A stretch of DNA of 64,000 bases from Nocardioides pini (GTDB lineage Bacteria; Actinomycetota; Actinomycetes; Propionibacteriales; Nocardioidaceae), in assembly GCF_026712185.1 (NCBI RefSeq), contig NZ_JAPPUX010000004.1:124001-188000 (forward strand). Direction: 5' to 3'. Made by a program: the position numbers and the translations under genes. How positions within the stretch are numbered: position 1 is the first letter of the stretch; every line of letters starts with the position of its first letter. Under the pieces are notes generated by a model. The model did no database searches, was not told where the DNA came from, and saw only the letters and a list, made by a program, of their open reading frames with translations. Shown here piece after piece: positions 12,749 to 27,251 of this stretch.

Positions 12749-13606
12749 TCATCGGGCGGCGTCGATGTAGGCGACCATCCGGTCGAAGAGCAGCGTCGCC
12801 CGGTAGAGGTCCTCCGAGGCCCCCGGCGGGTCGGGCTGGGGAGGCAGGTCCACGACCTCGCGCCACCCGGGTCGCAGCTCGTCGGCCAGGGCGGCGGCGA
12901 TGCGCGACGCGTCACGCACGACCTGGGGGTCGACCGACCAGACGGCCTCGAACGTCCGCGCCATCGGTCCGGTGTGCCCGCCCGGGCGCTCGACCGCCAC
13001 CAGGCACGCCGGCAGGTCGGCGGCGTCGCACACGACCAGCCACTCGCGGTTGAGCGGCGAGTCCGGCGGGATCGCGACCTCCACCGGGACGCCCCGGCGT
13101 GCCGGGGCGGGGTCGGCGACGTCGACGAAGACGACCGTGCACTGGGCCGTGCGGGCGAGCTCACGCCAGCGGTCGTAGGAGGCACTGAGGAACCGTTGCC
13201 GCTGGAACCCGCCGAACAGGACGGGGTCGGCGGCCCGGGCGGCGCACTCGTCCTCGATGGCGTGGCTCATCGACACGAGCGTGCGCCGCGAGAGCACCTG
13301 CGGCCGGAGGAGGGGGTGCAGGCGTCGGAGGTCGGCGAAGACCGACCCCGACCGGGCCTGGGGCACGTCGGCCCGCTGGACGGCCGCCGCCAGGGACAGT
13401 CCGCCCCGGCGGCGCGCCAGCACCTCGAGCACGGACTCGACGTCGGCCTCGCTGTAGCGGCGGTGACCCCCGGGCTGACGGCGCGGCTCGGGAAACCCGT
13501 AACGCCTTTCCCAGCTGCGCAGCGTGGAAATGGGTACTCCGGTCCTGTGGGCGAGATCCCCGATGGTGAGAGTGGCGTTGCCCAAACCTTGTCCACCCCT
13601 CCGCAT
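12749..13606 (-). CDS. MerR-family regulator with C-terminal DICT-like sensor domain
   Basis: A 285-residue regulator divergent from the carotenoid/phenolic-lipid operon. The N-terminal winged helix is typical MerR: LTIGDLAHRTGVPISTLRSW and GFPEPRRQPGGHRRYSEADV (about residues 13-60). The remaining 200 residues match what I recall as the DICT sensory domain (SMSHAIEDECAARA, VFVDVADPAP, EWLVVCDAADLPACLVAVE), which is often fused to MerR in actinobacteria. There is no cobalamin-binding motif, so it differs from the LitR/CarH light regulators that control carotenoid genes elsewhere. The start could be ATG 13606, or TTG 13585 which has GGAGGGG upstream; ATG 13648 is less likely. It probably controls the divergent promoter and itself. 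Confidence 0.85.
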   Translation of the reverse strand: MRRGGQGLGNATLTIGDLAHRTGVPISTLRSWERRYGFPEPRRQPGGHRRYSEADVESVLEVLARRRGGLSLAAAVQRADVPQARSGSVFADLRRLHPLLRPQVLSRRTLVSMSHAIEDECAARAADPVLFGGFQRQRFLSASYDRWRELARTAQCTVVFVDVADPAPARRGVPVEVAIPPDSPLNREWLVVCDAADLPACLVAVERPGGHTGPMARTFEAVWSVDPQVVRDASRIAAALADELRPGWREVVDLPPQPDPPGASEDLYRATLLFDRMVAYIDAAR

Positions 13607-13644
13607 CGTGCCTAGATTTTGTTGGAAGTGTTGCATAGGTTTGG
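13582..13644. promoter_or_regulatory. Inverted repeat bracketing the crt promoter (probable MerR operator)
   Basis: CCAAACCT (13582-13589) and AGGTTTGG (13637-13644) form a perfect 8-bp inverted repeat with a 47-base interval. One arm abuts the -35 box of the crt operon promoter; the other lies past the expected transcription start and within the merR leader. This layout suits a divergently acting repressor or activator that contacts both sides of the promoter. Binding by the MerR-DICT protein is inference. Confidence 0.55.
13589..13618 (+). promoter_or_regulatory. Predicted sigma-70-type promoter of the crtE-idi operon
   Basis: TTGTCC (13589-13594) and TAGATT (13613-13618) are separated by 18 bases, giving a recognisable -35/-10 pair in an otherwise GC-rich region. 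The local A/T-rich stretch TAGATTTTGTT is unusual for this window. The start of crtE is 60 bases further on. MerR-type promoters often have an overlong spacer; this one is only slightly long. Confidence 0.55.
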
Positions 13645-13678
13645 TCATCAAGGAACGGTCGAGCTGCGGGAGGCACAG

Positions 13679-14722
13679 ATGATCGGCACCGCCACGGACG
13701 AGGCGCTGGCACGGATCCTCGACGAGGGGCGCCGCCGTGCGGCCGCGGTCGACGCCCACCACGCACTGCTGTGGGAGGCGCTCGCCGCCGCCACCGAGGG
13801 CGGCAAGCGGTTCCGTCCCGCGCTGCTGGTCGCCACCCACGACGCCCTCGGCGGGGACTCGCCCGGCGCGGCCGCCGAGGTGGGTGCGGCGGTGGAGCTG
13901 CTGCACACCGCGTTCGTCATCCACGACGACGTCATCGACGACGACCACGTGCGCCGCGGGCGCCCCAACGTCAGCGGCACGTTCCGCGCGCTGGCCGGCG
14001 TCGACGGCGCCACCCCGGACGTCGCCGCCGGCTACGGGCTGACCGCCGCGATCCTGGCCGGCGACCTCGCGCTGAGCGCCGCGATCCGCGCCGTCGCGAC
14101 CTGCGGCGCACCGGCACCGGTCACCGAGCGACTGCTCGACCTGTTCGACGCCGCGCTGCACCGCACCGCCGCCGGCGAGCTCGCCGACGTACGCCACTCC
14201 CTCGACCTCGCCCCCGCCACCCTCGCGCAGAGCCTCGAGATGGAGGCGCAGAAGACCAGCGCCTACTCGTTCACCCTCCCGCTGCAGGCGGGCGCGGTGC
14301 TGGCCGGCGCCGACGCCGCGACGACCGCGCGGCTCGGCGACGTGGGCCGGGCCATGGGCATCGCCTTCCAGCTCGCCGACGACCTGATCGGCGTCTTCGG
14401 CGACCCGGCGCGCTCCGGCAAGAGCGCCACCTGCGACCTGCGCACCCGCAAGCAGACGCCGCTCCTGGTGCACGCGCGCACGACGTCCGCGTGGGCGCAG
14501 CTCCGCGGCTACCTCGGCCGCGACCTCGGCGACGACGAGCTCGACGAGGCCCGCGCCCTGCTCGTGGCCTCCGGGTCGCGGCGCTTCGTCGAGGACCTCG
14601 CCCAGCAGCACCTCGCGCAGGCGCGCACGGCGCTCGACGGCCTCGGCATCCCGGTCGACCTCGTCGACGGCGTCGCCGTCCGACCGGCCGTGCTGGCCGA
14701 CGGCAAGGAGGTCGCGGCATGA
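13679..14722 (+). CDS. crtE: Geranylgeranyl diphosphate synthase
   Basis: A 347-residue trans-prenyl diphosphate synthase. It has GGKRFRPALL (residues 41-50), the first aspartate-rich motif DDVIDDD (83-89) and the second, DDLIGVFGD (234-242). Chain length C20 is inferred from its position as first gene of a crt operon. GGPP would feed phytoene synthase here and also the UbiA prenyltransferase later in the operon. ATG 13679 is chosen because GGGAGG lies 6-11 bases upstream; the frame is open back to 13619 but that part lacks family character. Its stop overlaps the crtB start (ATGA). Confidence 0.92.
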   Translation: MIGTATDEALARILDEGRRRAAAVDAHHALLWEALAAATEGGKRFRPALLVATHDALGGDSPGAAAEVGAAVELLHTAFVIHDDVIDDDHVRRGRPNVSGTFRALAGVDGATPDVAAGYGLTAAILAGDLALSAAIRAVATCGAPAPVTERLLDLFDAALHRTAAGELADVRHSLDLAPATLAQSLEMEAQKTSAYSFTLPLQAGAVLAGADAATTARLGDVGRAMGIAFQLADDLIGVFGDPARSGKSATCDLRTRKQTPLLVHARTTSAWAQLRGYLGRDLGDDELDEARALLVASGSRRFVEDLAQQHLAQARTALDGLGIPVDLVDGVAVRPAVLADGKEVAA

Positions 14723-15603
14723 CGCTCTTCGTGGGCCGCAGCGCGCCCCGCAGCCTCTACGACACGGTGTCCGAGGCCAGCTCCGCGGTGGTGATCCGCG
14801 AGTACTCCAGCTCGTTCGGCCTGGCCTCGCGCCTCCTCGGCGAGCCGGTGCGCACCCAGGTGCGCAACGTGTACGCCCTCGTGCGGGTCGCCGACGAGAT
14901 CGTCGACAACCCCGACCCGACGCTCGACCGGTCCGCGCGCGCCACGATGCTCGACTGGCTCGAGGGCGACGTGGCCCACGCGATGCGCACCGGCTACAGC
15001 GGCAACCTGGTCGTGCACGCCTTCGCCCGCACGGCCATCGCCGTCGGGATCGAGCCCGCGATCGTGACCCCGTTCTTCACCTCGATGCGCACCGACCTCG
15101 ACACGCGGTCGCACACGCAGGAGAGCTTCGAGCGCTACGTCTACGGCTCGGCCGAGGTCGTCGGGCTGATGTGCCTGCGCGCCTTCCTCGCCGCGCCCGA
15201 CGCCCCGCCCGACCCTGACGCGCACTACGAGCGCCTCACGCCGGGCGCACGCAGCCTCGGCGCGGCGTTCCAGAAGCTGAACTTCGTCCGCGACCTGTCC
15301 GACGACCACGACCTCCTGCGCCGCGACTACTTCCCCGGACTGGACGTCGAGACGTTCTGCGAGGCCGACCGCGACCGGATCCTCGACGACGTCGATGCCG
15401 ACCTGCGGGCGGCCGCGGCGGTCGTGCCGGAGCTGCCCCCGAGCAGCCGGCGCGCGGTCCGGGCCGCCCACGCCACCTTCGCCGAGCTGGCCCAGCGGCT
15501 GCGTGCCGCGACGCCCGACGAGATCCGGCACACCCGCGTCCGCGTGCCGACGCCGGTCAAGCTGCGCCTGGCCGCGAGCTCGCTGCGCGGAGGACGTCCG
15601 TGA
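14719..15603 (+). CDS. crtB: Phytoene synthase
   Basis: A 294-residue squalene/phytoene synthase that joins two GGPP molecules to make 15-cis-phytoene. Motifs: YALVRVADEIVDN (about 52-64, first Asp-rich site), EVVGLMCLRAFL, and KLNFVRDLSDDHDLLRRDYFP (second Asp-rich site). The start ATG 14719 overlaps the crtE stop, and the stop overlaps the crtI GTG start, so it is coupled on both sides. The first 10 residues are a slight extension before SLYDTVSEASSAV. Confidence 0.94.
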   Translation: MTLFVGRSAPRSLYDTVSEASSAVVIREYSSSFGLASRLLGEPVRTQVRNVYALVRVADEIVDNPDPTLDRSARATMLDWLEGDVAHAMRTGYSGNLVVHAFARTAIAVGIEPAIVTPFFTSMRTDLDTRSHTQESFERYVYGSAEVVGLMCLRAFLAAPDAPPDPDAHYERLTPGARSLGAAFQKLNFVRDLSDDHDLLRRDYFPGLDVETFCEADRDRILDDVDADLRAAAAVVPELPPSSRRAVRAAHATFAELAQRLRAATPDEIRHTRVRVPTPVKLRLAASSLRGGRP

Positions 15604-17222
15604 CCCTGCGTCTGCCCGAGCGACTCAGCCGGTTCACCCCCACGCCCCGCCGGACCGGCGACGGCACCCCGCGACGCGTGGTCGTCGTCGGCGGCGGCAT
15701 CGCGGGCCTCGCCACCGCGGCACTCCTCGCCTCGCGCGGCCACTCCGTCGACCTCCTGGAGAAGAACGACGACCTCGGCGGTCGCGTCGGCAGCGTCGAG
15801 CGCGACGGCTTCCGCTTCGACACCGGGGCCTCGTGGTACCTGATGCCGGAGGTCTTCGAGCACTTCTTCGAGCTGCTCGGCACCACGGCCGACGCCGAGC
15901 TCGACCTCGAGGTGCTCGACCCGAGCTACCGGGTCTTCTTCGAGGGGCACGCGGAGCCGGTCGACCTGCGTCCCGACCGGGACCACAACCGCGCGCTGTT
16001 CGAGTCCCTCGAGCCGGGGGCCGGCGAGCGCTTCGACGCCTACCTCCGCTCGGCGGAGGACACCTACGACATGGCCCTGCGTCGCTTCCTCTACACGAGC
16101 TTCGACTCCCCGTCGGCCTTCGTGCACCCCGACGTCGTACGCCGGACCCCGGCCCTCGGCCGGCTCCTGACGCGGTCGCTGGAGAGCCACGTCGCCGGCT
16201 CGTTCACCGACAACCGGCTGCGCCAGGTGCTCGGCTACCCCGCCGTCTTCCTGGGCTCCTCCCCCAGCCGGACGCCGAGCATGTACCACCTGATGAGCCG
16301 GCTCGACCTCGGCGACCGCGTGCTCTACCCGCAGGGCGGGTTCACCCAGCTGATCCGGGTCATCGCCGACCTCGCGGAGAAGCACGGCGCGCGTCTGCAC
16401 ACCGGCGCGGCCGTGACCCGCATCCTCACCGCCGAGACGTCCGGCGGACGGCCCGTCGTCACCGGCGTCGAGCACGGCTCCCCGGCCGGTCCGCGCACCG
16501 TCGAGGCCGACGTCGTCGTCGGCGCCGCCGACCTCCACCACCTCGAGACGGCGCTGCTGCCCACCGCGCTCCAGACCCACCCCGAGCCGGCGTGGCGCGA
16601 CCGCTCCCCCGGTCCTGGCGCGGTGCTCGCCATGCTCGGCGTCGAGGGACGGCTGCCGGAGCTGCCGCACCACTCGCTGTTCTTCACCCGCGACTGGGGG
16701 CAGAACTTCGGCGACATCTTCGGCAAGGATGCACGGGTGCCCGATCCCGCCTCGATCTACGTCTGCAAGCCCTCCGAGACCGACCCCTCCGTCGCCCCGG
16801 AGGGGTGCGAGAACCTCTTCGTGCTCGTGCCGGTGCCCGCCGACACGTCCATCGGCAGCGGCGGCGACGACGGCGCCGGGTCCGAGACCGTCGAGCGCAC
16901 GGCCGACGCGGCCATCGACCAGATCGCCTCCTGGGCCGACGTGCCCGACCTGCGCGAGCGGATCCGGGTGCGCCACACGGTCGGCCCGGAGGACTTCGCC
17001 ACCCGCTACCACGCGTGGCGGGGAGGCGCCCTCGGGCTCGAGCACACCCTGCGCCAGAGCGCGTTCCTGCGTCCGGGCAACGTGTCCGCCAAGGTCGACG
17101 GCCTGCTCTACGCCGGTGCGAGCACCGTCCCCGGCGTCGGCCTGCCGATGTGCCTGATCAGTGCCGAGCTCGTGCTCAAGCGGCTCTCGGGCGACCGGTC
17201 CAGCCTGCCGGTGCAGGCATGA
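15600..17222 (+). CDS. crtI: Phytoene desaturase (CrtI type)
   Basis: A 540-residue FAD-dependent desaturase. The dinucleotide site VVVVGGGIAGLATAALL is at about residues 27-43, followed by DLGGRVGSVERDGFRFDTGASWYLMP, the family signature. The C-terminal TVPGVGLPMCLISAELVLKRL is the usual CrtI end. It converts phytoene to lycopene by successive desaturations; the exact number of steps is not visible. The 25-residue N-terminal extension before the FAD motif is longer than usual. The start is GTG 15600, overlapping crtB. The downstream crtYc starts seven bases after the stop. Confidence 0.94.
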   Translation: MTLRLPERLSRFTPTPRRTGDGTPRRVVVVGGGIAGLATAALLASRGHSVDLLEKNDDLGGRVGSVERDGFRFDTGASWYLMPEVFEHFFELLGTTADAELDLEVLDPSYRVFFEGHAEPVDLRPDRDHNRALFESLEPGAGERFDAYLRSAEDTYDMALRRFLYTSFDSPSAFVHPDVVRRTPALGRLLTRSLESHVAGSFTDNRLRQVLGYPAVFLGSSPSRTPSMYHLMSRLDLGDRVLYPQGGFTQLIRVIADLAEKHGARLHTGAAVTRILTAETSGGRPVVTGVEHGSPAGPRTVEADVVVGAADLHHLETALLPTALQTHPEPAWRDRSPGPGAVLAMLGVEGRLPELPHHSLFFTRDWGQNFGDIFGKDARVPDPASIYVCKPSETDPSVAPEGCENLFVLVPVPADTSIGSGGDDGAGSETVERTADAAIDQIASWADVPDLRERIRVRHTVGPEDFATRYHAWRGGALGLEHTLRQSAFLRPGNVSAKVDGLLYAGASTVPGVGLPMCLISAELVLKRLSGDRSSLPVQA

Positions 17223-17229
17223 GCGCCCC

Positions 17230-17595
17230 ATGAGCCCCTCCCACTGGGCCTACGTCGCCATGCTGGCGTTCTGCCTCGCAGGCACGCTGCCGCTGGTGCC
17301 GGCCTTCCGGCTGCGGGTGCTCAAGCAGCCGGGGCGGCTGCTGCTCACCGTTGCGCTTGCCGGGACGCCGTTCCTGCTGTGGGACCTCTGGGCCACGCAC
17401 GTCGGGCACTGGTGGTTCGACGCCGACCAGACCCTCCCGTGGCGCGTCGCCGGGCTTCCGCTGGAGGAGATCGCCTTCTTCGTCGTCATCCCGGTGGTGT
17501 CGGTGCTGACCCTGGAGGGCGTGCGCGCCGCCCGTCGCGGCGTACGACCCTGGTCACCGCGCACCCGGGAGGATGGCGAGGTGACCTCGCCATGA
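17230..17595 (+). CDS. crtYc: Lycopene cyclase subunit CrtYc-like
   Basis: A 121-residue membrane protein with about three hydrophobic segments. It carries WATHVGHWWFDADQTL and GLPLEEIAFFVVIPVVSVLTLE, the hallmark of one half of the heterodimeric lycopene cyclases of actinobacteria and of the fused CrtYcd proteins. Together with the next gene it should cyclise lycopene ends. Beta-cyclisation is the common outcome, but epsilon or C50 variants (CrtYe/Yf, CrtYg/Yh) have the same architecture and cannot be distinguished by eye. The start at ATG 17230 lies within the open frame; the stop overlaps the next ATG (ATGA). Confidence 0.88.
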   Translation: MSPSHWAYVAMLAFCLAGTLPLVPAFRLRVLKQPGRLLLTVALAGTPFLLWDLWATHVGHWWFDADQTLPWRVAGLPLEEIAFFVVIPVVSVLTLEGVRAARRGVRPWSPRTREDGEVTSP

Positions 17596-17939
17596 CCTAC
17601 ACCACCATCGCCGTCCTCTGCGTGCCGCTGGCCGTGGTGCTGGACCGGTGGGTCGCCCGCACCCGCCTCACCTCGACCCGGGACTGGTGGGCCGCCTACG
17701 CGATCATCGTGTTCTTCCAGCTCCTCACCAACGGCTGGCTGACCGGTCGCGAGATCGTGAGCTACTCCGGCGACGCCATCATCGGCAGCGGGCAGGTCAC
17801 GGTCCTGGGCGACGGTCGCCTGTTCTACGCACCCGTGGAGGACCTCGGGTTCGGCTTCGGTCTGGTACTCGGCAGCTGCATCGCCTGGACGTGGCTGGGC
17901 CGTCGGCGCGACGGGTCCGCCGAGCAGGTGCGCGGATGA
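17592..17939 (+). CDS. crtYd: Lycopene cyclase subunit CrtYd-like
   Basis: A 115-residue membrane protein, partner of the preceding subunit. Motifs of the second lycopene cyclase half are present: NGWLTGREIVSYSGDAIIG and FYAPVEDLGFGFGLVLGS. About three transmembrane helices are visible. Its ATG overlaps the crtYc stop and its own stop overlaps the P450 start. The two subunits should work as a complex in the cytoplasmic membrane, where lycopene is dissolved. Confidence 0.88.
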   Translation: MTYTTIAVLCVPLAVVLDRWVARTRLTSTRDWWAAYAIIVFFQLLTNGWLTGREIVSYSGDAIIGSGQVTVLGDGRLFYAPVEDLGFGFGLVLGSCIAWTWLGRRRDGSAEQVRG

Positions 17940-19339
17940 GCGTCGCCACCCGACTGCAGTCGATGCAGCCGACCGACGTCGGCGTGCCGGGACCGACGTC
18001 GTGGGACATGGCCCGGGCCTTCCGCTCGGTGCGCGCCGACCCGCTCACCTTCCTCGGCGAGGTGTCGCGGCACTACGGCGACACCGTCTCCTTCCCGGTG
18101 CCCGGGGCGCCGGCCCTGCTGCTCAACGACCCCGCCGACGTCAAGCACGTGCTCCAGACCTCGGCGCGCAGCTGGGGCAAGGACACCGTCCAGTACGCCG
18201 CCCTGGCGCGGGTCACCGGACCCGGCCTCCTCGCCTCGGCCGAGCCGAGCTGGATCGACCACCGGCGGCTCGCCGCGCCGGCCTTCCACCACCAGCGCCT
18301 CGAGGCGGTGGGCCTCGAGGTGCGTGCGGCCGCCCGCACCGCCGTCGACGCCCGGCTGGGCGGACCGCACGCCCGCGCGATCGCCGCCGGGGCGGTCGTC
18401 GACGTCGCCGCGCTGACCCACACGATCGGCCTCGACGCCGTGGGTCGCGCGCTGTTCAGCACCGACCTGTCCGACCACGCCCACGACCTGCTGGCGGCCA
18501 CGAGCGAGGCCGCCGACCTGGTGGTGCGCCTCGGGCGCTCGGTCCTCCCCCGCGCCGAGTGGACCCCCACCCGGACCAACCTCCGCCTCCGATCCGCCCG
18601 TCGCCGCCTCGACGCCGGCGCCGCCGCGATCATCGCGGAGCGGCGGGCCCGCAACGCCCGCACGGGCGGCACGACCCACCACGGCGACGACCTGCTCGGG
18701 CTGCTCCTCGACAGCGGGATGGCGGACGGCGAGATCCGCGACGAGCTCGTCACGATGGTCATCGCCGGCCACGAGACGGTGGCCGCCGCGCTCGCGTGGA
18801 CCCTGATGCTCCTGGCCGAGCACCCCGAGGCGCAGGACCGCGTGCGCTCCGAGCTCGACGCCCACCCCGGGCCCGTGCCGCTCGTGGGCCACCGCGACCG
18901 GCTGCCCTGGACCCGTGCCGTGGTCGACGAGGCGCTGCGCCTCTACCCGCCGGCCTGGGCCATCTCCCGGCGCTCGCACCGCGACGACGAGCTCGGCGGG
19001 CGTCGCGTCCCGGCCGGCACGCTCGCGATCATCAGCCCCTGGCTGGTCCACCGACGCCCCGACCTCTGGACCGAGCCCGAGGCCTTCCGTCCGGATCGCT
19101 TCCTCGACGGCACCACCCGCACCGGCTACCTGCCCTTCGGCCAGGGACCGCGGCTGTGCATCGGCCGGGAGTTCGCGCTCGGGGAGATGGTCGTCGTCCT
19201 CGCCGAGCTGCTGCGCGAGCACCGCGTCGAGGTGCCCGGCGGGCCGGGCGGCTGGAGGCGACCCGTCGCGGAGGCGAAGGTCGCCGTCCACCCCCGCGGT
19301 GGCATGCCGCTCGTCGTCCGACGGACGGGCACTCCGTGA
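17936..19339 (+). CDS. Cytochrome P450, probable carotenoid hydroxylase
   Basis: A 467-residue P450. The heme-binding loop is FGQGPRLCIGREF with the thiolate Cys at about residue 408; the I-helix reads VIAGHETVAAALAW; and the K-helix has VDEALRLYPPAW (E-x-x-R). The substrate is inferred from position between lycopene cyclase and a carotenoid-type glycosyltransferase. Thermus uses a P450 (CYP175A1) to hydroxylate beta-carotene at C3, and an analogous role would create the hydroxyl group that the next two gene products could glycosylate and acylate. Redox partners are not encoded nearby. The start overlaps crtYd (ATGA). Confidence 0.9.
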   Translation: MSVATRLQSMQPTDVGVPGPTSWDMARAFRSVRADPLTFLGEVSRHYGDTVSFPVPGAPALLLNDPADVKHVLQTSARSWGKDTVQYAALARVTGPGLLASAEPSWIDHRRLAAPAFHHQRLEAVGLEVRAAARTAVDARLGGPHARAIAAGAVVDVAALTHTIGLDAVGRALFSTDLSDHAHDLLAATSEAADLVVRLGRSVLPRAEWTPTRTNLRLRSARRRLDAGAAAIIAERRARNARTGGTTHHGDDLLGLLLDSGMADGEIRDELVTMVIAGHETVAAALAWTLMLLAEHPEAQDRVRSELDAHPGPVPLVGHRDRLPWTRAVVDEALRLYPPAWAISRRSHRDDELGGRRVPAGTLAIISPWLVHRRPDLWTEPEAFRPDRFLDGTTRTGYLPFGQGPRLCIGREFALGEMVVVLAELLREHRVEVPGGPGGWRRPVAEAKVAVHPRGGMPLVVRRTGTP

Positions 19340-20517
19340 CGGCCGCGCTCCTCGTCGACCTCGTGCTCGCCGCGCTCCTCCTCGGAGCCGCGGTGTGGGC
19401 GCAGCGGCTGGTGGCCGACCTCCGCACCCTCCCGCGTGTCGGTGTCGCGAGCGGCACGAGTCCGTCGGTGTCGGTGGTGGTCCCCGCGCGTGACGAGGAG
19501 ATGGCACTGCCGGCGCTGCTGCGGTCGGTGGCCGAGCAGGTGCCGCCCGTCCGCGAGGTCGTCGTCGTCGACGACGCGTCGCGCGACGCGACCGCCGCCG
19601 TGGCCCGCGACGGGGGCGCCCGGGTCGTGCCGGCCGGCACGCCGCCACCGGGCTGGACCGGCAAGGCGTGGGCCTGCCACACCGGCGCCGCGGCGACCAC
19701 CGGCGACCTGCTGCTCCTCCTCGACGCCGACACGGTCCTCCGGCCGGGTGCGCTCGCGGGCCTGCTCGCAGCGCACGCCCGGCACGGCGGGCTCGTGTCG
19801 GTGCAGCCGCACCACGACGTCGTACGCCCCTACGAGCAGCTGTCGGCCTACTTCAACGTCGTCGCACTGATGGCCAGCGCTGCCTTCACCCGTCGCGGCC
19901 GGGACGACGCCGCCCACGCGCCGATGGCGTTCGGACCGTGCCTGTTGTCCTCCCGCGAGGACTACCGCCACGCCGGTGGGCACGAGGCCGTCCGCGCCGA
20001 CATCCTCGACGACGCCGCCCTCGCCGCCGCCTACCAGCGGGCGGGGCTGCCCGTGTGGTGCGCGGTCGGGGGCGACGCGGTGCGCATGCGCAGCTATCCC
20101 GGCGGGCTGGGCCAGCTCGTGGCCGGCTGGACGAAGAACATCGCCTCCGGGGCAGCGGACGCGGCGCCGTCGGCGACCGCCGCCACCGTCGCCTGGATCA
20201 GCGCCCACCACGCCGTCGCCGTCGGGGCGGTCCTGTCCCTCCTCGTCGCGCTGACCGGACGGGGCGGGTCCCTCGTGGCCGGCAGCCCGCTCCTGTGGGC
20301 GGCGGCCTACGTCGCCGTGGCCCTGCAGCTGCGCTGGCTGCTCCGCCGCGCCGGCTCGTTCCGGTGGTGGGCGTGGTCGCTGTTCCCGGTGCCCCTGCTG
20401 GCCTTCGACCTCGTCTTCGCGCGCTCGCTCGCCCTGACCGTCGTCCGCCGCTCGGTGCCGTGGCGCGGCCGCGACGTGTCCCTCGCGCGCGGCCCGTCCG
20501 GGGAGGAGGTGGTCTGA
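19336..20517 (+). CDS. Family 2 glycosyltransferase, carotenoid glycosyltransferase-like (CrtQ type)
   Basis: A 393-residue membrane-anchored GT-A glycosyltransferase starting at GTG 19336. An N-terminal membrane helix (about 3-22) is followed by SVSVVVPARDEEMALPALL, VVVDDASRDATAAVA and LLLLDADTVLRPGAL (the D-x-D metal site). Hydrophobic segments near the C-terminus anchor the protein. This architecture fits the CrtQ glycosyltransferase of staphyloxanthin synthesis. With an acyltransferase of the CrtO type directly after it, the likely product is a glycosylated carotenoid. Sugar identity cannot be told. Coupled to both neighbours by stop-start overlaps. Confidence 0.86.
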   Translation: MTAALLVDLVLAALLLGAAVWAQRLVADLRTLPRVGVASGTSPSVSVVVPARDEEMALPALLRSVAEQVPPVREVVVVDDASRDATAAVARDGGARVVPAGTPPPGWTGKAWACHTGAAATTGDLLLLLDADTVLRPGALAGLLAAHARHGGLVSVQPHHDVVRPYEQLSAYFNVVALMASAAFTRRGRDDAAHAPMAFGPCLLSSREDYRHAGGHEAVRADILDDAALAAAYQRAGLPVWCAVGGDAVRMRSYPGGLGQLVAGWTKNIASGAADAAPSATAATVAWISAHHAVAVGAVLSLLVALTGRGGSLVAGSPLLWAAAYVAVALQLRWLLRRAGSFRWWAWSLFPVPLLAFDLVFARSLALTVVRRSVPWRGRDVSLARGPSGEEVV

Positions 20518-21017
20518 TGCTCCGACTCGTCATGCCCCAGACGGCCACCATCGTGGTCGACGTCGTCGCGTGGGGCGTCTTCCACGCCGCCACCGGCTAT
20601 GCCGCGCACCGGCTCGGTGACGAGCGGCTGTCCCGCGACGGCTGGGGGCTGCGGGAGCGGGCCTTCGAGGACCGCGGCCGGTGGTACCGCCGACGGCTGC
20701 ACATCCACCGCTGGAAGGACCGGCTCCCCGAGGCGGGCGCGCTGTTCGAGGGCGGCGTCAGCAAGCGCGAGCTGCCGGCGCTCGACGCCGACGGCCTCGA
20801 GCTGTTCGTGCGCGAGACCCGACGCGCCGAGCTGGGGCACTGGTGGGCGCTGTGGTGCAGCCCGCTCTTCGTCCTCTGGAACCCGCCCCTGGCGGCGTTC
20901 CTGCTCGCCGCCTACGGCGTGCTGGTCAACCTGCCGTTCATCGCCGTCCAGCGCTACAACCGCTTCCGGACCCAGGCCCTGCTCGCGCGACTCGCACGCC
21001 GGCGGAGCACGACATGA
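20517..21017 (+). CDS. Glycosyl-carotenoid acyltransferase (CrtO-type)
   Basis: A 166-residue membrane protein with hydrophobic segments at the N-terminus and near residues 115-145. The stretch LHIHRWKDRLPEAGALF is the hallmark of glycosyl-4,4'-diaponeurosporenoate acyltransferase, the last enzyme of staphyloxanthin synthesis, which esterifies the sugar of the carotenoid glycoside with a fatty acid. LGHWWALWCSPLFVLWNPP follows the family pattern. Here the acceptor is more likely a C40 carotenoid glycoside, because crtB/crtI and a lycopene cyclase precede it (inference). ATG 20517 shares a base with the glycosyltransferase stop (TGATG). Confidence 0.82.
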   Translation: MLRLVMPQTATIVVDVVAWGVFHAATGYAAHRLGDERLSRDGWGLRERAFEDRGRWYRRRLHIHRWKDRLPEAGALFEGGVSKRELPALDADGLELFVRETRRAELGHWWALWCSPLFVLWNPPLAAFLLAAYGVLVNLPFIAVQRYNRFRTQALLARLARRRSTT

Positions 21018-21883
21018 CCACCCCCGCGACCTCCCGGTCCCGCGTCGGTGCCGCCTCGGCGGCGCCGCAGGGCGAGGTCGCGGCCCCGCAGGAGTCCCGG
21101 CACGGGCCGATCGCCCAGCTGCTGATCGCGTGGTCGCCGCTGAGCGCGATCCTGGTGGCCTACTGGGTGGCGCAGTGGGTCACCGCGCCCCTCGGGGTGG
21201 GCAACGGCGCCGACACCAACCGGCTCGGCGCGAGCCTGCACGTGCTCGGCCCGGCGCGCGCCGACGAGACGCTGCTCGGCACGGTCCCCAGCGTGTGGCT
21301 GCAGGCCCGCCTCGTGGACGGCTCGGCTCACTGGTACGACGTCGTGGCGGCGCTCGTCTACGTCACCCACTTCGTGACCATCCCGCTCATCACCGCGGTC
21401 GTGTGGTTCCGGCTGCGCGACCGCTTCGGCCAGTGGCTCACCGCGGTGCTCGCGATGTCCTTTCTCGGCATCGCCGGCTACCTCGCCTACCCGGCCGCGC
21501 CGCCCTGGCTCGCCGCCCGGCGCGGCGACATCGGCACGCTCGAGCGCATCTCCCACCTCGGCTGGGAGCACCTCGGTCTCGACGCGGTCGGCCGGCTCGT
21601 GCAGCTCGGGCAGTCGGGCAGCAACCCGGTGGCCGCGATGCCGTCGCTGCACGCCGGCGCCGCGCTGCTGGCGGCGCTGTTCCTGTGGCCGTCGGTGTCG
21701 GTGGTCTCGCGCGCCCTGCTGGCGGCGTACGCCCTGGCCATGGCGCTGACCCTCGTCTACACCGGCGAGCACTACGTGGTCGACGTGCTCGCAGGCTGGC
21801 TCGTCGCCATCCTCGGCATCGCCGTCTCGCAGCTGGTGGTCCGCCTGACCCGCGAGCCCCGGGCGTCGGGAGGGGCGACATGA
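21014..21883 (+). CDS. PAP2-family membrane phosphatase / phosphotransferase
   Basis: A 289-residue integral membrane protein of the PAP2 / Aur1-like superfamily. It has about six hydrophobic segments. Phosphatase motifs are AYPAAPPWLAARRGD, MPSLHAGAAL (P-S-x-H) and YTGEHYVVDVLAG (the catalytic His-x3-Asp). Members either hydrolyse lipid phosphates or transfer phospho-head-groups. Its fully coupled place in a carotenoid and quinol lipid operon is unexplained: it might dephosphorylate prenyl diphosphates or lipid intermediates, or attach a head group to the product. This is speculation; the sequence supports only the superfamily. Confidence 0.85.
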   Translation: MTTPATSRSRVGAASAAPQGEVAAPQESRHGPIAQLLIAWSPLSAILVAYWVAQWVTAPLGVGNGADTNRLGASLHVLGPARADETLLGTVPSVWLQARLVDGSAHWYDVVAALVYVTHFVTIPLITAVVWFRLRDRFGQWLTAVLAMSFLGIAGYLAYPAAPPWLAARRGDIGTLERISHLGWEHLGLDAVGRLVQLGQSGSNPVAAMPSLHAGAALLAALFLWPSVSVVSRALLAAYALAMALTLVYTGEHYVVDVLAGWLVAILGIAVSQLVVRLTREPRASGGAT

Positions 21884-22719
21884 GCACCCGCCCCGTGACC
21901 GGCGTGGCCGCCGGCCGCTCGTCCTCCCCCTCGCACGCCCGCGCGCTCGTGGGCGCCGCCCACGCGGGGCCGGCCCTCGCGGTCACCGTCCTGGCCGCGC
22001 TCCTGTCGGTCGCGCAGGGCCTGCCCGCGACGACGACCGCGGTGCTCGTGGCCGCCGTCCTCGCCGGCCAGCTCTCGATCGGGTGGAGCAACGACCTCGT
22101 CGACCGCTCCCGCGACCGCGCGGCCGGGCGGGGTGACAAGCCGCTCGCCGCGGACGACGGCCCGGTCGCCGTCGTCCGGGTGGCGTGCGGCGTCGCCGTC
22201 GTCGCATGCGTCGTCCTGTCGCTCGCCCTCGGACCCGCCGCCGGTCTCGTGCACCTGGCATGCGTCGCGTCGGCGTGGGCCTACAACGTCTGGCTGAAGG
22301 CGACGGTCTGGTCCTGGGTGCCCTACGCCGTGTCGTTCGGCGGGCTCACGGCGGTGGTCACCCTCGCCGACGGCGAGGCACCGCCGTGGTGGTGGCCGGT
22401 CGGCGCCGCGCTGCTCGGCGTCGCGGCCCACCTCCTCAACGTGCTGCCCGACCTCGCGGACGACGCCGCCACCGGCGTGCGCGGTCTCCCCCACCGCCTC
22501 GGGGAGCGACGCATCGCCCCGGTCGCCGCCGTCGTCCTGGTCGCGGCGACCACAGTGGTCCTCGTCGGGGCGGGGCCGCCGGTGGCCGCCACGGTGGCCG
22601 TCGCGGTCGTCGTGCTCGCGCTGGCGGGCGTGGTGGTCGTCGGCACCGGACGCCGGCCCTTCGTCGCGGCGGTCGCCATCGCCCTGACCGACGCCCTGCT
22701 GCTGGTGGTGGCCCGATGA
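21880..22719 (+). CDS. UbiA-family membrane prenyltransferase
   Basis: A 279-residue prenyltransferase with about eight to nine membrane helices. The first Asp-rich motif is NDLVDRSRDRAAGRGDKPLA (N-D-x2-D-x3-D) and the second is NVLPDLADDAATGVRGLP (D-x2-D-D). The R-x-x-K-P ending of the first motif is typical of enzymes that prenylate aromatic acceptors, and less like lycopene elongases, though that alternative cannot be excluded beside crt genes. With the type III PKS, methyltransferase, monooxygenase and geranylgeranyl reductase nearby, it most likely transfers a geranyl or geranylgeranyl group onto a phenolic lipid. The start overlaps the PAP2 stop. Confidence 0.88.
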   Translation: MSTRPVTGVAAGRSSSPSHARALVGAAHAGPALAVTVLAALLSVAQGLPATTTAVLVAAVLAGQLSIGWSNDLVDRSRDRAAGRGDKPLAADDGPVAVVRVACGVAVVACVVLSLALGPAAGLVHLACVASAWAYNVWLKATVWSWVPYAVSFGGLTAVVTLADGEAPPWWWPVGAALLGVAAHLLNVLPDLADDAATGVRGLPHRLGERRIAPVAAVVLVAATTVVLVGAGPPVAATVAVAVVVLALAGVVVVGTGRRPFVAAVAIALTDALLLVVAR

Positions 22720-23927
22720 GCCGCGGCAGCGCCACCGAGCACTGGGACCTCGTCGTCGTCGGTGCCGGCCCCGCCGGGTCCGCGACCGCGCTCGGCGCGC
22801 TGGCCGAGGACCCGGGCCTGCGCGTCCTGCTCCTCGACCGCAGCGAGTTCCCGCGCGACAAGTCCTGCGGCGACGGCATCGCCCCCCACGTCCTCGACGC
22901 CCTCGCACCGGTCGGAGCCGCCGACGTCGTCGACGGGTGGGCGCCGCTGCGCGACCTCGAGCTGGCCCATGGCGACGTGTCGGTCGCGGGCCCCATGCGT
23001 CGCGAGGTGCACGTCGTGCCGCGGCAGGTGCTCGACGCCCGGCTCGTCGAGCGGGCGGTGTCCGCCGGAGCGGTGCTGCGCACCCACCGCGCCACGTCGC
23101 TCAGCCGCACGGGCACCCCCGTGGTGTCCGGCGAGCTGTCCGCCGACGTGGTCGTCGGCGCCGACGGCGCCCACTCCTTCGTCCGGACGGCGCTGCTGGG
23201 CAAGCGCCGCGAGCCGCGCGCCATCGCAATCCGCGGCTACGCACCGACCACGCCCGAGATGGCGGGGAGGCAGGTCATCCGCTACGGCAACCGGCGCCAG
23301 CCGTCCTACGCCTGGGCCTTCGACCGCGGCGACGGCCTGGCCAACGTCGGCTACGGCGAGCTGCTGCCCGGCGAGCGCCACGGCGGTGCACCGAGCCGCA
23401 GGCTGCTCCTCGACCAGCTGGAGGAGCTGGTCCCCGGCGCCGCCAGCACCGGTGACGACTGGCGCGGCCACCACCTGCCCCTGAGCACCTGGCGGTGGGA
23501 CCAGCCCGACGGCCCGGTCCTGCTCGTCGGCGACGCCGCCGGACTCGTCAACCCGATGACCGGTGAGGGGATCTACTACGCCGTCGCCACCGGGATCGCC
23601 GCCGGACGCACCGCGGCGCGGGCGGTCCGGGCGGGTCGGCCCGCGGAGGCCGGCGCCCGCCACCGGCACACCGTCCGCGCCCTGCTCGGGACGCACCTGC
23701 GCCACACGTGGGCGGCCTCGCGGCTCGCGCAGTCGCCCCGCATCGTCGACGCGGGCATCCGCGCCGCCACCCGCGACCGCCACGCCTTCGACGCGCTCGT
23801 CGAGCTCGGCCTCGGCGACGGCCGCATCGACGCCCGGCTGGCGGGCGGCCTGCTGCGCAGCCTCGCCCGCCCGGACCGACCCGCCCGACCCGACCTGCCT
23901 TCGACCCCCACACCCCGAGGTGGCTGA
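22716..23927 (+). CDS. Geranylgeranyl reductase family FAD oxidoreductase
   Basis: A 403-residue flavoprotein. The FAD site is [20 protein letters not shown] near the N-terminus, then [19 protein letters not shown], the Cys-Gly-Asp-Gly signature of the geranylgeranyl reductase family, [10 protein letters not shown], and [21 protein letters not shown]. Family members hydrogenate isoprenoid double bonds of prenyl diphosphates, archaeal lipids or prenylated quinones, using NADPH or ferredoxin. In this operon it could saturate the chain transferred by the UbiA enzyme; reduction of a menaquinone chain is an alternative. Only one base separates its stop from the PKS start. Confidence 0.9.
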
Positions 23928-23928
23928 C

Positions 23929-24993
23929 ATGAGGATCCTCTCCGTACGAGGCGCACTGCCGTCCCACTCGCACCCGCAGGCCGAGATCACCGAGGCCTTC
24001 GGCGCGTTCATCTCCGAGCGCAGCCTCGACCGGTCGTTGCTGCGCCGCTTCCACGCCAATGCCGGGGTCGAGCGACGCCACACCGTCCTGCCGCTCGACC
24101 AGTACGCCGGGCTCGGCGACTTCGGCCACGCCAACGACCTGTTCATCGAGCACGCCGTCGAGCTGGGCTCGCGCGCGCTCGTCGACGCCCTCAAGGCCGC
24201 CGACCTCACGCCCTCCGACGTCGGCCTCGTCGTCACCGCGACGGTCACGGGGCTCGCCGTGCCCTCGCTCGACGCCCGCATCGCCGCCCAGGTCGGCCTG
24301 CGGGAGGACGTGCGCCGGATGCCGCTCGTCGGGCTCGGCTGCGTCGCCGGCGCCGCCGGCATCGCGCGCGTCCACGACTACCTCCTGGGGCACCCCGACC
24401 ACACCGCGGTGCTCATCGCCGTGGAGCTGTGCTCGCTGACCGTGCAGCGCGACGACGCGTCGGTGCCGAACCTCGTGGCGAGCGGTCTCTTCGGCGACGG
24501 GGCCGCGGCCGTCGTCGCGGTCGGGTCGTCGGGCCCGTCCGGCCGGCCGGATCCCGTCGAGGTCCTCGACTCGCGCAGCCGCCTCTACCCCGACAGCGAG
24601 CGCACCATGGGCTTCGACGTCACCGGCAACGGCCTGCGCATCGTGCTCGACGCCGAGGTGCCCACCCTGGTGGGCCGCTTCGTGCGTGGGGACGTCGACG
24701 CCTTCCTCGCCGACCACGGCCTCACGCGCGCGGACATCGGCTGGTGGGTCTGCCATCCCGGCGGTCCCAAGGTGATCGAGGCGCTCGAGCAGGCACTCGA
24801 GGTGCCGAGGGACGCGGTCCGGCTGACGTGGGAGTCGCTGGCCCGGGTGGGCAACCTCTCCTCGGTGTCGGTCCTGCACGTCCTGGAGGACACCCTGCGT
24901 GAGCGTCCCCCCGCCCCCGGCAGCCACGGCGTCCTGATGGCGATGGGCCCGGGCTTCTGCTCCGAGCTCGTGCTGCTGAGGGCCGCGTCGTGA
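23929..24993 (+). CDS. Type III polyketide synthase (alkylresorcinol / phenolic lipid synthase-like)
   Basis: A 354-residue chalcone-synthase-fold enzyme. The catalytic triad is visible: Cys138 in [15 protein letters not shown], His276 in [10 protein letters not shown], and Asn309 in [23 protein letters not shown] is the usual conserved loop. Homologues in Streptomyces griseus (SrsA) and Actinoplanes (AgqA) extend long acyl starters with malonyl or methylmalonyl-CoA to alkylresorcinols or pyrones. The ICMT-type methyltransferase and FAD monooxygenase directly downstream repeat the SrsA-SrsB-SrsC order. The acyl starter length and extender cannot be read by eye. The stop overlaps the next GTG. 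Confidence 0.93.
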
Positions 24994-25553
24994 CCGGGCT
25001 CGTCGCGTTCACCGTCCTGGTGGCGCTCGTCGGCCTCGAGCGGGTCGCCGAGCTCGTCGTCTCGACCCGCAACGCCCGGTGGAGCCGCGAGCGCGGCGGT
25101 GTCGAGCACGGGCTGGGGCACTTCCCGTTCATGGTCGTGCTGCACACCGGCCTGCTCGTCGGCGCGCTCGCCGAGGCGTGGATCCGGCAGCCGCAGGTCC
25201 CGGCCGCCCTGGCGTGGTCGATGCTCGCGCTCGTCGTCGCGTCGCAGGCCCTCCGCTGGTGGTGCATCGCCACCCTGGGCCCGCGGTGGAACACCCGCGT
25301 GATCGTCGTGCCGGGGATGCCGCCCGTCACCTCGGGTCCCTACCGGTTCCTGCGCCACCCCAACTACGTGGCCGTCGTGGTCGAGGGGATCGCGCTGCCG
25401 CTGGTGCACGCGGCCTGGATCACCGCGCTGGTCTTTACCGTCCTGAACGCCGCCCTGCTCGTCGTACGCATCCGCGTCGAGGACGCGGCACTGGCCACCC
25501 TGCCGCGATCCGACGCGGCCCCGGAGCCCCGGACGGAGGCCGCCGGTGCATGA
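24990..25553 (+). CDS. ICMT-type membrane methyltransferase (SrsB-like)
   Basis: A 187-residue membrane protein starting at GTG 24990. It has an N-terminal membrane helix, further hydrophobic helices, and the isoprenylcysteine methyltransferase C-terminal signature [20 protein letters not shown] (R-H-P-x-Y, SAM binding). In phenolic lipid clusters this enzyme O-methylates the alkylresorcinol or its hydroxylated product, and that is the likely role here. The gene overlaps the PKS stop by four bases and the monooxygenase start by eight. Confidence 0.88.
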
Positions 25554-26586
25554 CGTGGTGGTGGCCGGTGGTGGGCCGGTAGGCCTCGCGGCCGCGCTGC
25601 ACGCCCACCGCGCCGGGCTCTCGGTCGTGGTGCGCGAGCCCCGGACCGGTCCCATCGACAAGGCGTGCGGCGAGGGACTGATGCCCGGCGCCGTCGCCGA
25701 GCTGGCCGTCCTCGAGGTGCACCCGCACGGCCGCGAGCTCAGCGGGATCCGCTACCTCGACGCGAACGCCGGCGGCCCCGGGGCGACCGCGAGGTTCGCC
25801 CGTGGGCCGGGACGCGGGGTCCGCCGCACCGTGCTCCACGATGCCCTGGCCGCGCGGGTCGCCGCCGCCGGGATCGTCGTGGACCCCCGCCCCGTCGCCC
25901 GTGTCGACGACGCCGGCGACCATTTGCTCGTCGACGGCGAGCCGGCCCGCCACCTCCTCGCCGCGGACGGCCTGCACTCCCCCGTGCGGCGCCTCGTCGG
26001 CCTCGACGCGCCCGTCTCCGGGCGGCGCCGCTTCGGGCTGCGCTGCCACGTGCAGCAGGCGCCGTGGTCGTCCTACGTCGAGGTGCACTGGTCGCCGCGC
26101 GCCGAGGCCTACGTGACCCCCGTCGACGACGACCTCGTCGGCGTGGCCGTCCTGGGAGCGGCCGGGTCGCGCTTCGAGGAGCTCCTCGACGACTTCCCGC
26201 TGCTCCAGCAACGCCTCACCGGCCCGCGCACGCGGGTGATGGGCGCCGGCCCCCTGCGACAGCGCGCCCGCTCGCGGTCGGCCGGGCGGGTGCTGCTCGT
26301 CGGCGACGCCGGGGGCTACGTCGACGCGCTCACCGGCGAGGGCATCGCCCTCGGCCTCGCCCAGGCGCGCGTCGCCGTCGCCTGCATCGCCGAGGGCCGC
26401 ACCGAGCACTACGACCGGCTGGCCGGTCGGCTGGGCCTGCGGCACGAGCTGCTCACGCACGCCCTCCTGCGGGCCACCGCCCACGCCACCGTCCGCAGGC
26501 GCCTCGTCCCGGCCGCGTCCCGGCTGCCGTGGCTCTTCGACACCGCCGTCAACCAGCTCGCCCGACCCGTGGGGAGGCCCGCATGA
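25546..26586 (+). CDS. FAD-dependent monooxygenase (SrsC/AgqC-like)
   Basis: A 346-residue flavoprotein hydroxylase starting at GTG 25546. The FAD site is VVVAGGGPVGLAAALHAHRAG at the very N-terminus, then IDKACGEGLMPGAVAEL, LLAADGLHSPVRRLVG, and LLVGDAGGYVDALTGEGIAL. In the SrsABC and Agq systems such an enzyme hydroxylates the resorcinol ring, leading to hydroquinone or quinone lipids. It resembles the geranylgeranyl reductase in the same operon in its C-G-E/D-G motif, so its assignment as hydroxylase rather than reductase depends on the PKS-methyltransferase context. Confidence 0.86.
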   Translation: MHDVVVAGGGPVGLAAALHAHRAGLSVVVREPRTGPIDKACGEGLMPGAVAELAVLEVHPHGRELSGIRYLDANAGGPGATARFARGPGRGVRRTVLHDALAARVAAAGIVVDPRPVARVDDAGDHLLVDGEPARHLLAADGLHSPVRRLVGLDAPVSGRRRFGLRCHVQQAPWSSYVEVHWSPRAEAYVTPVDDDLVGVAVLGAAGSRFEELLDDFPLLQQRLTGPRTRVMGAGPLRQRARSRSAGRVLLVGDAGGYVDALTGEGIALGLAQARVAVACIAEGRTEHYDRLAGRLGLRHELLTHALLRATAHATVRRRLVPAASRLPWLFDTAVNQLARPVGRPA

Positions 26587-27251
26587 CCACGTCCGACAGC
26601 ACGACCGACACCACCACCGACAGCACCGGCACGACCGGCACCGTGACGCCCGAGCTGGTGGTGCTGCTCGACGAGGACGGCCGGGCCGTCGGCACCGCCG
26701 ACAAGGCCGGCGTCCACCACGCCGACACCCCGCTGCACCTGGCCTTCTCCTGCTACCTCTTCGACGACGCCGGCAACGTGCTGGTGACCCGGCGGGCACT
26801 GCACAAGCGCACCTTCCCGGGCGTGTGGACCAACAGCTGCTGCGGACACCCGGCGCCCGGCGAGCCCCTGGCGGACGCCGTGCGTCGCCGCGTCGAGCAG
26901 GAGCTCGGGACCACGGTCGGCGACCTCCGCCTGGTGCTGCCGCGCTTCCGCTACCGCGCCGAGCAGGACGGCGTCGTGGAGAACGAGATGTGCCCGGTGT
27001 TCGTCGGCCTCGTCTCCGAGGCCGTCCCCGGCGACACCTCCCCCGCCGTGTCCCCCGACCCGGACGAGGTCGAGGACGCGCGGTGGGAGCCGTGGTCGTC
27101 GTTCCGCGAGTCGGTCCTCGACGGCAGCCGGACGGTGTCGGTGTGGTGCCGCGAGCAGGTGGCCCAGCTGCCCGCCGACCCGGTGTCGGCGGTCGCGGCC
27201 GACGTCGCCGAGCTGCCGCCGGCCGCGCGGGTCGTCGACGTCCGGCCCTGA
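26583..27251 (+). CDS. idi: Isopentenyl-diphosphate delta-isomerase, type I
   Basis: A 222-residue NUDIX-fold isomerase that interconverts IPP and DMAPP and so balances the precursors of GGPP. The active-site Cys lies in TNSCCGHPAPGE (Cys86/87) and the catalytic Glu in ENEMCPVFVG. Residues 1-20 are an unusual Ser/Thr/Asp-only extension (MTTSDSTTDTTTDS...), absent from the core family and probably disordered. It is the last gene of the coupled operon, overlapping the monooxygenase stop. Its presence fits an operon that consumes isoprenoid units in two branches. Confidence 0.94.
   Translation: MTTSDSTTDTTTDSTGTTGTVTPELVVLLDEDGRAVGTADKAGVHHADTPLHLAFSCYLFDDAGNVLVTRRALHKRTFPGVWTNSCCGHPAPGEPLADAVRRRVEQELGTTVGDLRLVLPRFRYRAEQDGVVENEMCPVFVGLVSEAVPGDTSPAVSPDPDEVEDARWEPWSSFRESVLDGSRTVSVWCREQVAQLPADPVSAVAADVAELPPAARVVDVRP

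Follow-up and report, generated by a model that had tools for sequence, protein, structure and literature searches.

How is a carotenoid operon controlled by a CarH-like regulator that has no domain for binding B12, and which DNA would such a regulator read? In the 64,000-nucleotide stretch of Nocardioides pini DNA analysed here (the window), the carotenoid (crt) operon faces a divergent gene for a MerR protein with a DICT domain, as the original prediction had stated (Table 1). The same prediction placed the operator in two inverted arms around the operon promoter and suggested a different sensory route to carotenoid control, which we judge plausible. We think it reasonably likely that the regulator is a B12-independent repressor of the CarA/CarH type, which sits on tandem repeats, represses both the crt operon and its own gene, and is released by a signal read by the DICT domain.

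Table 1 Features of the regulator-crt region of the window
Feature	Position	Strand	Remarks
MerR-DICT regulator, 278 aa	12752..13585	-	translation and Pfam; start codon probably TTG, from 13585; stop at 12749-12751
DICT domain, residues 83-199	12989..13339	-	Pfam PF10069, E 5e-19
MerR DNA-binding domain, CarA/CarH type, residues 5-77	13355..13573	-	CarH and CarA are the best solved relatives
Possible second CarH-type tandem pair, TGCCCAAACCT/TGTCCACCCCT	13579..13600	+	weak; one mismatch in window
Left arm, CCAAACCT	13582-13589	+	overlies the regulator's probable TTG start codon (13585-13583)
Direct repeat 1, GTGCCTAGATT	13608..13618	+	contains the predicted -10 box TAGATT
Conserved 33-bp operator candidate	13609..13641	+	column conservation; genus-wide pattern search
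Degenerate middle repeat slot, TGTTGGAAGTG in window, consensus AGTTGGAAGTG	13620..13630	+	repeat role inferred
Direct repeat 3, TTGCATAGGTT	13631..13641	+	includes bases 1-5 of the right arm
Right arm, AGGTTTGG	13637-13644	+	first five bases conserved within repeat 3; last three not conserved
crtE-type polyprenyl (GGPP) synthase, first operon gene	13679..14722	+	Pfam polyprenyl_synt on longer ORF 13619-14722
Phytoene synthase	14719-15603	+	Pfam
Phytoene-desaturase-like oxidoreductase	15600-17222	+	Pfam
Two lycopene-cyclase subunits	17161-17595, 17592-17939	+	Pfam
Rest of collinear cluster, P450 to IPP-isomerase-like NUDIX	17936..27251	+	Pfam; 25546-26586 from ORF alone

The regulator is composed of a MerR DNA-binding domain and a DICT domain that takes the place of the cobalamin domain, and Pfam thereby confirms the predicted domain make-up. 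The score of 50.9 bits against MerR_1 (cut-off 21.6) places the protein in the MerR superfamily. It scores 49.6 against the second MerR winged-helix model (cut-off 28.2) and 69 bits against DICT (PF10069, gathering cut-off 23.8), and has no Pfam match to the B12-binding families PF02310 and PF02607. The NCBIfam CarH model covers only residues 5-88 of the regulator, with 61 bits against a cut-off of 400. The nearest solved sequence relatives of the DNA-binding domain are CarH and CarA. In a superposition of the predicted regulator model (mean pLDDT 85.5) on CarH (5c8d), the DNA-binding domain aligns with a Z score of 14.0 and an rmsd of 1.3 over 73 residues, with 44% identity. Residues 19-29 of the model form the recognition helix, the sixth residue of which is residue 24. 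The TTG at 13585 is the most likely start codon, because it is located just downstream of the ribosome-binding site GGAGGGG at 13602-13596 of the minus strand.

The best fold match of the DICT region (model residues 90-240) is the sugar-binding domain of TrmB (2f5t), with a Z score of 10.7 and an rmsd of 4.0 Å over 129 aligned residues; at 7% identity, the fold alone is shared with this archaeal sugar regulator. The fold search with the predicted model also aligned the region with other PLD-fold proteins, and no DICT structure is among the matches listed. Members of the PLD superfamily use a catalytic HxKx4D motif, which is absent here, since the regulator translation contains no lysine. A reasonable guess from the model is that DICT has a ligand-binding pseudo-enzyme fold.

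The crt operon opens with crtE, the start of which we place at 13679, preceded by the ribosome-binding site GGGAGG at 13668-13673. The rest of the collinear cluster (17936-27251) encodes a P450, a glycosyltransferase, a CrtO-type acyltransferase, PAP2, UbiA, a GGR-like FAD oxidoreductase, a type III PKS, ICMT, a further FAD oxidoreductase, and an IPP-isomerase-like NUDIX protein. We take this part to resemble the alkyl-O-dihydrogeranyl-methoxyhydroquinone clusters, joined to a glycosylated-carotenoid cluster.

Orthologous loci were collected from 147 genomes of the genus and from a collection of named genomes. The crtE-adjacent loci comprise 20 from the genus (L003-L022, window included) and 33 from the named genomes. 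Several named loci duplicate genomes of the genus collection, so the counts below use 34 loci, namely the 33 named ones and the window. In the column table, L053 is misaligned (7 mismatches) and L052 is poor (6 mismatches); recounts used the 29 loci that have a repeat period of 23 bp and no more than 4 mismatches.

Both predicted arms, CCAAACCT and AGGTTTGG, are present at exactly the positions given for them. They are the sole copies of CCAAACCT in the window, against a mean of 0.20 expected, and two copies occurred in 2 of 100 shuffles. The spaced pair is found once in the window and in no shuffle out of 100; it has a single location in the 4.5-Mb genome and is retained in the five closest relatives examined. 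An inverted-repeat operator formed by the pair and bracketing the promoter is nevertheless very improbable. Conservation of the arms across orthologous intergenic regions, the check proposed together with the prediction, went against it for the left arm: six of 34 regions have an exact left arm and five have both arms, and the left-arm columns carry 0.10-0.31 bits in 29 aligned orthologues. We rejected the inverted-arm operator on this conservation; the left arm also covers the probable start codon of the regulator.

The hexamers of the promoter predicted between the arms, TTGTCC (13589-13594) and TAGATT (13613-13618), are present with their 18-base spacer, but by our own count they agree with the sigma-70 consensus at 8 of 12 bases, and a promoter scan with a threshold of 9 of 12 consensus bases found no promoter. 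The -35 element is not conserved, as a match to TTGACA at four or more of six bases occurs upstream of slot 1 in 10 of 29 loci and upstream of slot 3 in 5 of 29. With the -35 element unconserved and the scan empty, this promoter was rejected.

The intergenic region contains instead a sharply bounded conserved block at 13609-13641, with a mean of 1.44 bits per column in 29 aligned orthologues, versus 0.46 in the left flank and 0.25 in the right. The block consensus, TGCCTAGATTT AGTTGGAAGTG TTGCATAGRTT, includes two copies in the same orientation, TGCMTAGRTT and TGCATAGRTT. The repeat period is 23 bp in 31 of the 34 crtE-adjacent loci and 24 bp in the other three, and 30 of the 34 loci have at most two mismatches in the 20 specified bases. 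Between the copies, the middle slot (columns 11-21) keeps T14 in 30 of 31 loci, A18 in 27 of 31 and T20 in 29 of 31. The middle slot was rejected as a full third CarH repeat and is retained as a degenerate slot alone. The conserved operator candidate thus appears to be a direct repeat of the CarH type, which overlaps the predicted -10 box and the right arm, rather than a pair of inverted arms. A search of 147 whole Nocardioides genomes, with at most one mismatch allowed, returned 15 matches, every one of them between the regulator gene and crtE, and the reversed pattern had no match in the same genomes. Therefore, the regulator looks like a local one with a single target.

The block might also be mainly the crt promoter, made of two TANNNT elements or of a -35/-10 pair, with the repeat being incidental. 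Of the 29 loci, 23 fit TANNNT at slot 1 and 27 at slot 3, and the hexamers are 17 bp apart. However, conservation reaches far past promoter hexamers to span TGC..TAG..TT of both copies, similar repeats occur at many MerR-DICT loci that control other genes, and the repeat core follows the recognition helix. We consider a mere promoter unlikely and continue with the block as an operator.

The core of the crt repeats, TGYnnA, is the reverse complement of TnnACA, the core of the tandem 11-bp direct repeats to which CarH is described to bind (PMC8156234, PMC9304148). A direct-repeat pair was detected at 33 of the 34 crt loci. Upstream of MerR-DICT genes away from crt clusters, a pair was detected at 51 of 84 loci (shuffle test, p<0.05), while 60 column-permuted control motifs averaged 5.9 positives at the same 84 loci and never exceeded 18. 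The other 33 loci have no significant pair. For tests by group, the loci were sorted by hand according to their neighbour gene, and all 84 were later tested jointly. Duplicates (L024 and L148) were left out, as was L099 for the shortness of its upstream stretch. Four of 20 loci were positive in the group left over after sorting, and three of nine in the conserved-small-protein group, a level equalled by 3 of 30 permuted motifs.

The third base of the repeat core co-varies with residue 24 of the regulator. Among the 77 loci with a good site, out of 118 examined, serine at position 24 occurs with C in 36 of 39 loci, and methionine, threonine, alanine or valine with T in 35 of 38; after exclusion of the crt loci, the counts are 7 of 8 and 35 of 37. 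Over the full set of loci, the association is strongest for residue 24 and for residue 18, which adjoins the recognition helix. The position of residue 24, sixth in this helix, is described as one that generally reads bases (PMC5045206). Across the MerR-DICT family, the third core base thus seems to follow residue 24. This speaks for the repeats as the regulator's site but is no proof, because the locus counts are not phylogenetically independent. Given the CarH-like DNA-binding domain, the similar pairs at other MerR-DICT loci, and the residue-24 association, the direct repeats are probably the regulator's own site, as predicted from sequence comparison.

Several MerR-DICT loci have a distinct organization of their own. 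Three TGCAT-type direct repeats are positioned at 0, 12 and 22 bp upstream of the MerR-DICT genes in L074, L076 and L082 (Acidimicrobiaceae MAGs), a spacing close to the three-repeat layout of CarH; in L074 a WhiB gene comes next, and in L082 a gene related to it. The second MerR-DICT gene of the N. pini genome (L113, G000:C11:14500-18900) is divergent from a gene for a 60-residue conserved putative membrane protein, which is followed by a CsbD-like stress protein. Repeats of the TGTAGAGGTT type are located between the divergent genes, and the arrangement recurs in many Nocardioides. A family of proteins of about 75-95 residues is encoded divergently to the MerR-DICT genes in L027, L069, L120, L125, L126, L129, L130, L135 and L139; most of them share the motif VVDW[ST]DLG..MW.FLT, and the one member tested has no Pfam match. 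Proteins of about 90-120 residues that resemble only region 2 of sigma factors are divergent to MerR-DICT in L023, L025, L028-L032, L067, L115, L116, L118, L119, L127 and L141. The protein from L119 scored as Sigma70_r2, and that from L025 has no Pfam match.

Far from the crt cluster, the genome of N. pini encodes two tandem CarH/LitR-like proteins with a MerR domain, two B12-binding domains and the Wx9EH motif (G000:C9:543833-545939, L162:3334-5443). Orthologous pairs are present in 14 of the 20 genomes examined that have a crt MerR-DICT gene, and these B12-dependent proteins could themselves bind the crt repeats, with the DICT regulator only modulating them. However, the promoter of the second CarH-like gene contains two TGTCCAN5TGTCCA pairs, forming four 11-bp repeats, the core of which is TGTCCA and not TGCMTA. 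Furthermore, the other six genomes have the crt regulator without the CarH pair, yet the crt repeats are conserved among them. We find this division of roles quite unlikely, and assign the crt repeats provisionally to the MerR-DICT protein.

In the closest relatives, a CarH-type site may lie beside the putative MerR-DICT site and include the left arm. Two close relatives among 12 genomes examined, G089 and G030, have a perfect TGTCCAN5TGTCCA at the same place, and the pair in the window (13579-13595), of which the left arm is part, differs from it by one mismatch. The second-site reading is weak because of the mismatch in the window, the small number of genomes, and the four occurrences of the pattern in the host genome. 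The sequence TGTCCAAGGATTGTCCA recurs in 6 of 12 genomes searched. It is located near a lipoprotein gene and a sigma-factor-like gene in two stretches, at about position 2006 of L184 and 1089 of L186 (G000:C11:439005 and G089:C1:902588), and this locus is a candidate target of CarH.

We propose that the regulator, a MerR protein of the CarA/CarH type in which DICT would have replaced the B12 domain, binds head to tail on the tandem direct repeats at 13608-13641. In this operator candidate, a degenerate repeat separates two good ones with a spacing of 23 bp. The candidate covers both TANNNT candidates for the crt -10 element, and it starts a few bases upstream of the ribosome-binding site of the regulator gene. 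Because the TANNNT elements are within the repeats and the block is close to this ribosome-binding site, the bound protein would keep RNA polymerase off the DNA on the crt side, and probably also on the side of the regulator gene. Binding would thus most likely repress the crt operon together with the regulator gene. The argument for occlusion is one of position, since no promoter passes the scan and the -35 element is not conserved. By analogy with CarA and CarH, the regulator would most likely act as a repressor until a signal releases it.

Activation is the usual mode of action in the MerR family, and the regulator, which has the MerR fold, might activate the crt operon in the classical MerR manner, through distortion of a long spacer. 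We give this mode a small chance. The classical layout has a palindrome within a promoter spacer of 19-20 bp, and the aligned intergenic regions contain no conserved palindrome centred in a spacer, no conserved -35 element, and no conserved promoter with such spacing. The nearest DNA-binding domains, those of CarA and CarH, belong to repressors, which is the role that we favour for the MerR-DICT protein.

The signal read by DICT would probably be light or the photo-oxidative state. The domain would sense it by means of a bound chromophore or small molecule, and the regulator would then leave the DNA. A photolyase is encoded near 4 of 37 named non-crt MerR-DICT loci and 3 of 50 genus loci, the latter with shorter flanks; for amine-oxidase-type FAD proteins, the counts in these two sets are 6 and 14, respectively. 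No photolyase was found beside the crt loci. We infer a light or photo-oxidative input as likely from these photolyase and FAD-protein neighbours of other MerR-DICT genes. An IPP-isomerase/GGPP-synthase-like gene is present near 3 of the 37 named loci, that of Candidatus Microthrix among them. An isoprenoid signal is a fair alternative by analogy with CrtR, the binding of which is described as affected by isoprenoid pyrophosphates (PMC5401885, PMC6739363).

The regulator shares with CarH and class I LitR of Thermus, Bacillus and Myxobacteria the MerR DNA-binding domain, which is 44% identical to that of T. thermophilus CarH, and a putative role in the control of carotenoid genes. The operator candidate resembles in its layout the tandem direct repeats (core TGTnnA/TnnACA) that CarH binds over the promoter. 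The regulator differs from these proteins in having DICT and no B12-binding domain, and the crt operator differs from that of CarH in its core, TGC instead of TGT, and in its outer repeats, which are 23 bp apart with a degenerate middle. CarA of Myxococcus xanthus, the DNA-binding domain of which (2jml) is the next nearest to that of the regulator, is likewise B12-independent in its action, and is described as acting at a crt promoter of cells in which CarH is present too. In contrast to the regulator, CarA is reported to retain a B12-type domain and to be released by the protein CarS. LitR classes II-V, compared here by description only, are MerR proteins with diverged C-termini and a link to light responses; classes IV and V are described as lacking the B12 domain and having no known function, with class V found in Micrococcales (PMC9758184). 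CrtR of Corynebacterium glutamicum is, by its published description, also a divergent local repressor of an actinobacterial crt operon and light-inducible (PMC6739363, PMC5401885), but it has a MarR fold and a different operator. By analogy, the regulator would work like CarA and CarH, but it is not CarH, because the defining B12 domain is absent. Searches of the open-licence literature turned up no paper about a MerR-DICT regulator; subscription papers may describe one.

More tentatively, we speculate that MerR-DICT proteins are a B12-independent sister branch of CarA/CarH, large and spread across Actinomycetota. They would have a readable specificity code, in which residue 24 sets the third core base, and their DICT domain, of the PLD/TrmB-like fold, would bind a small molecule and let go of the tandem repeats in response to light or photo-oxidative state. 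The crt promoter of this Nocardioides clade would then be a two-sensor switch, with a B12-CarH site at 13579-13600 and a MerR-DICT site at 13608-13641, and an independent parallel to Myxococcus, where CarH and CarA are described as acting at one promoter. This extended scheme is possible, although we hold it to be rather doubtful.

A 2022 review, as far as its treatment of DICT goes, lists the domain among putative sensory domains without a discernible physiological purpose (PMC8846402). For the DICT protein of N. pini, only one target is in sight, the operator candidate is defined, and pigment gives a readable output; the signal of the domain is therefore directly testable. Our results suggest that the unusual direct-repeat reading of DNA by CarH is wider than its B12 photochemistry. 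If true, this would matter for optogenetic tools and for understanding how non-phototrophic bacteria respond to light.
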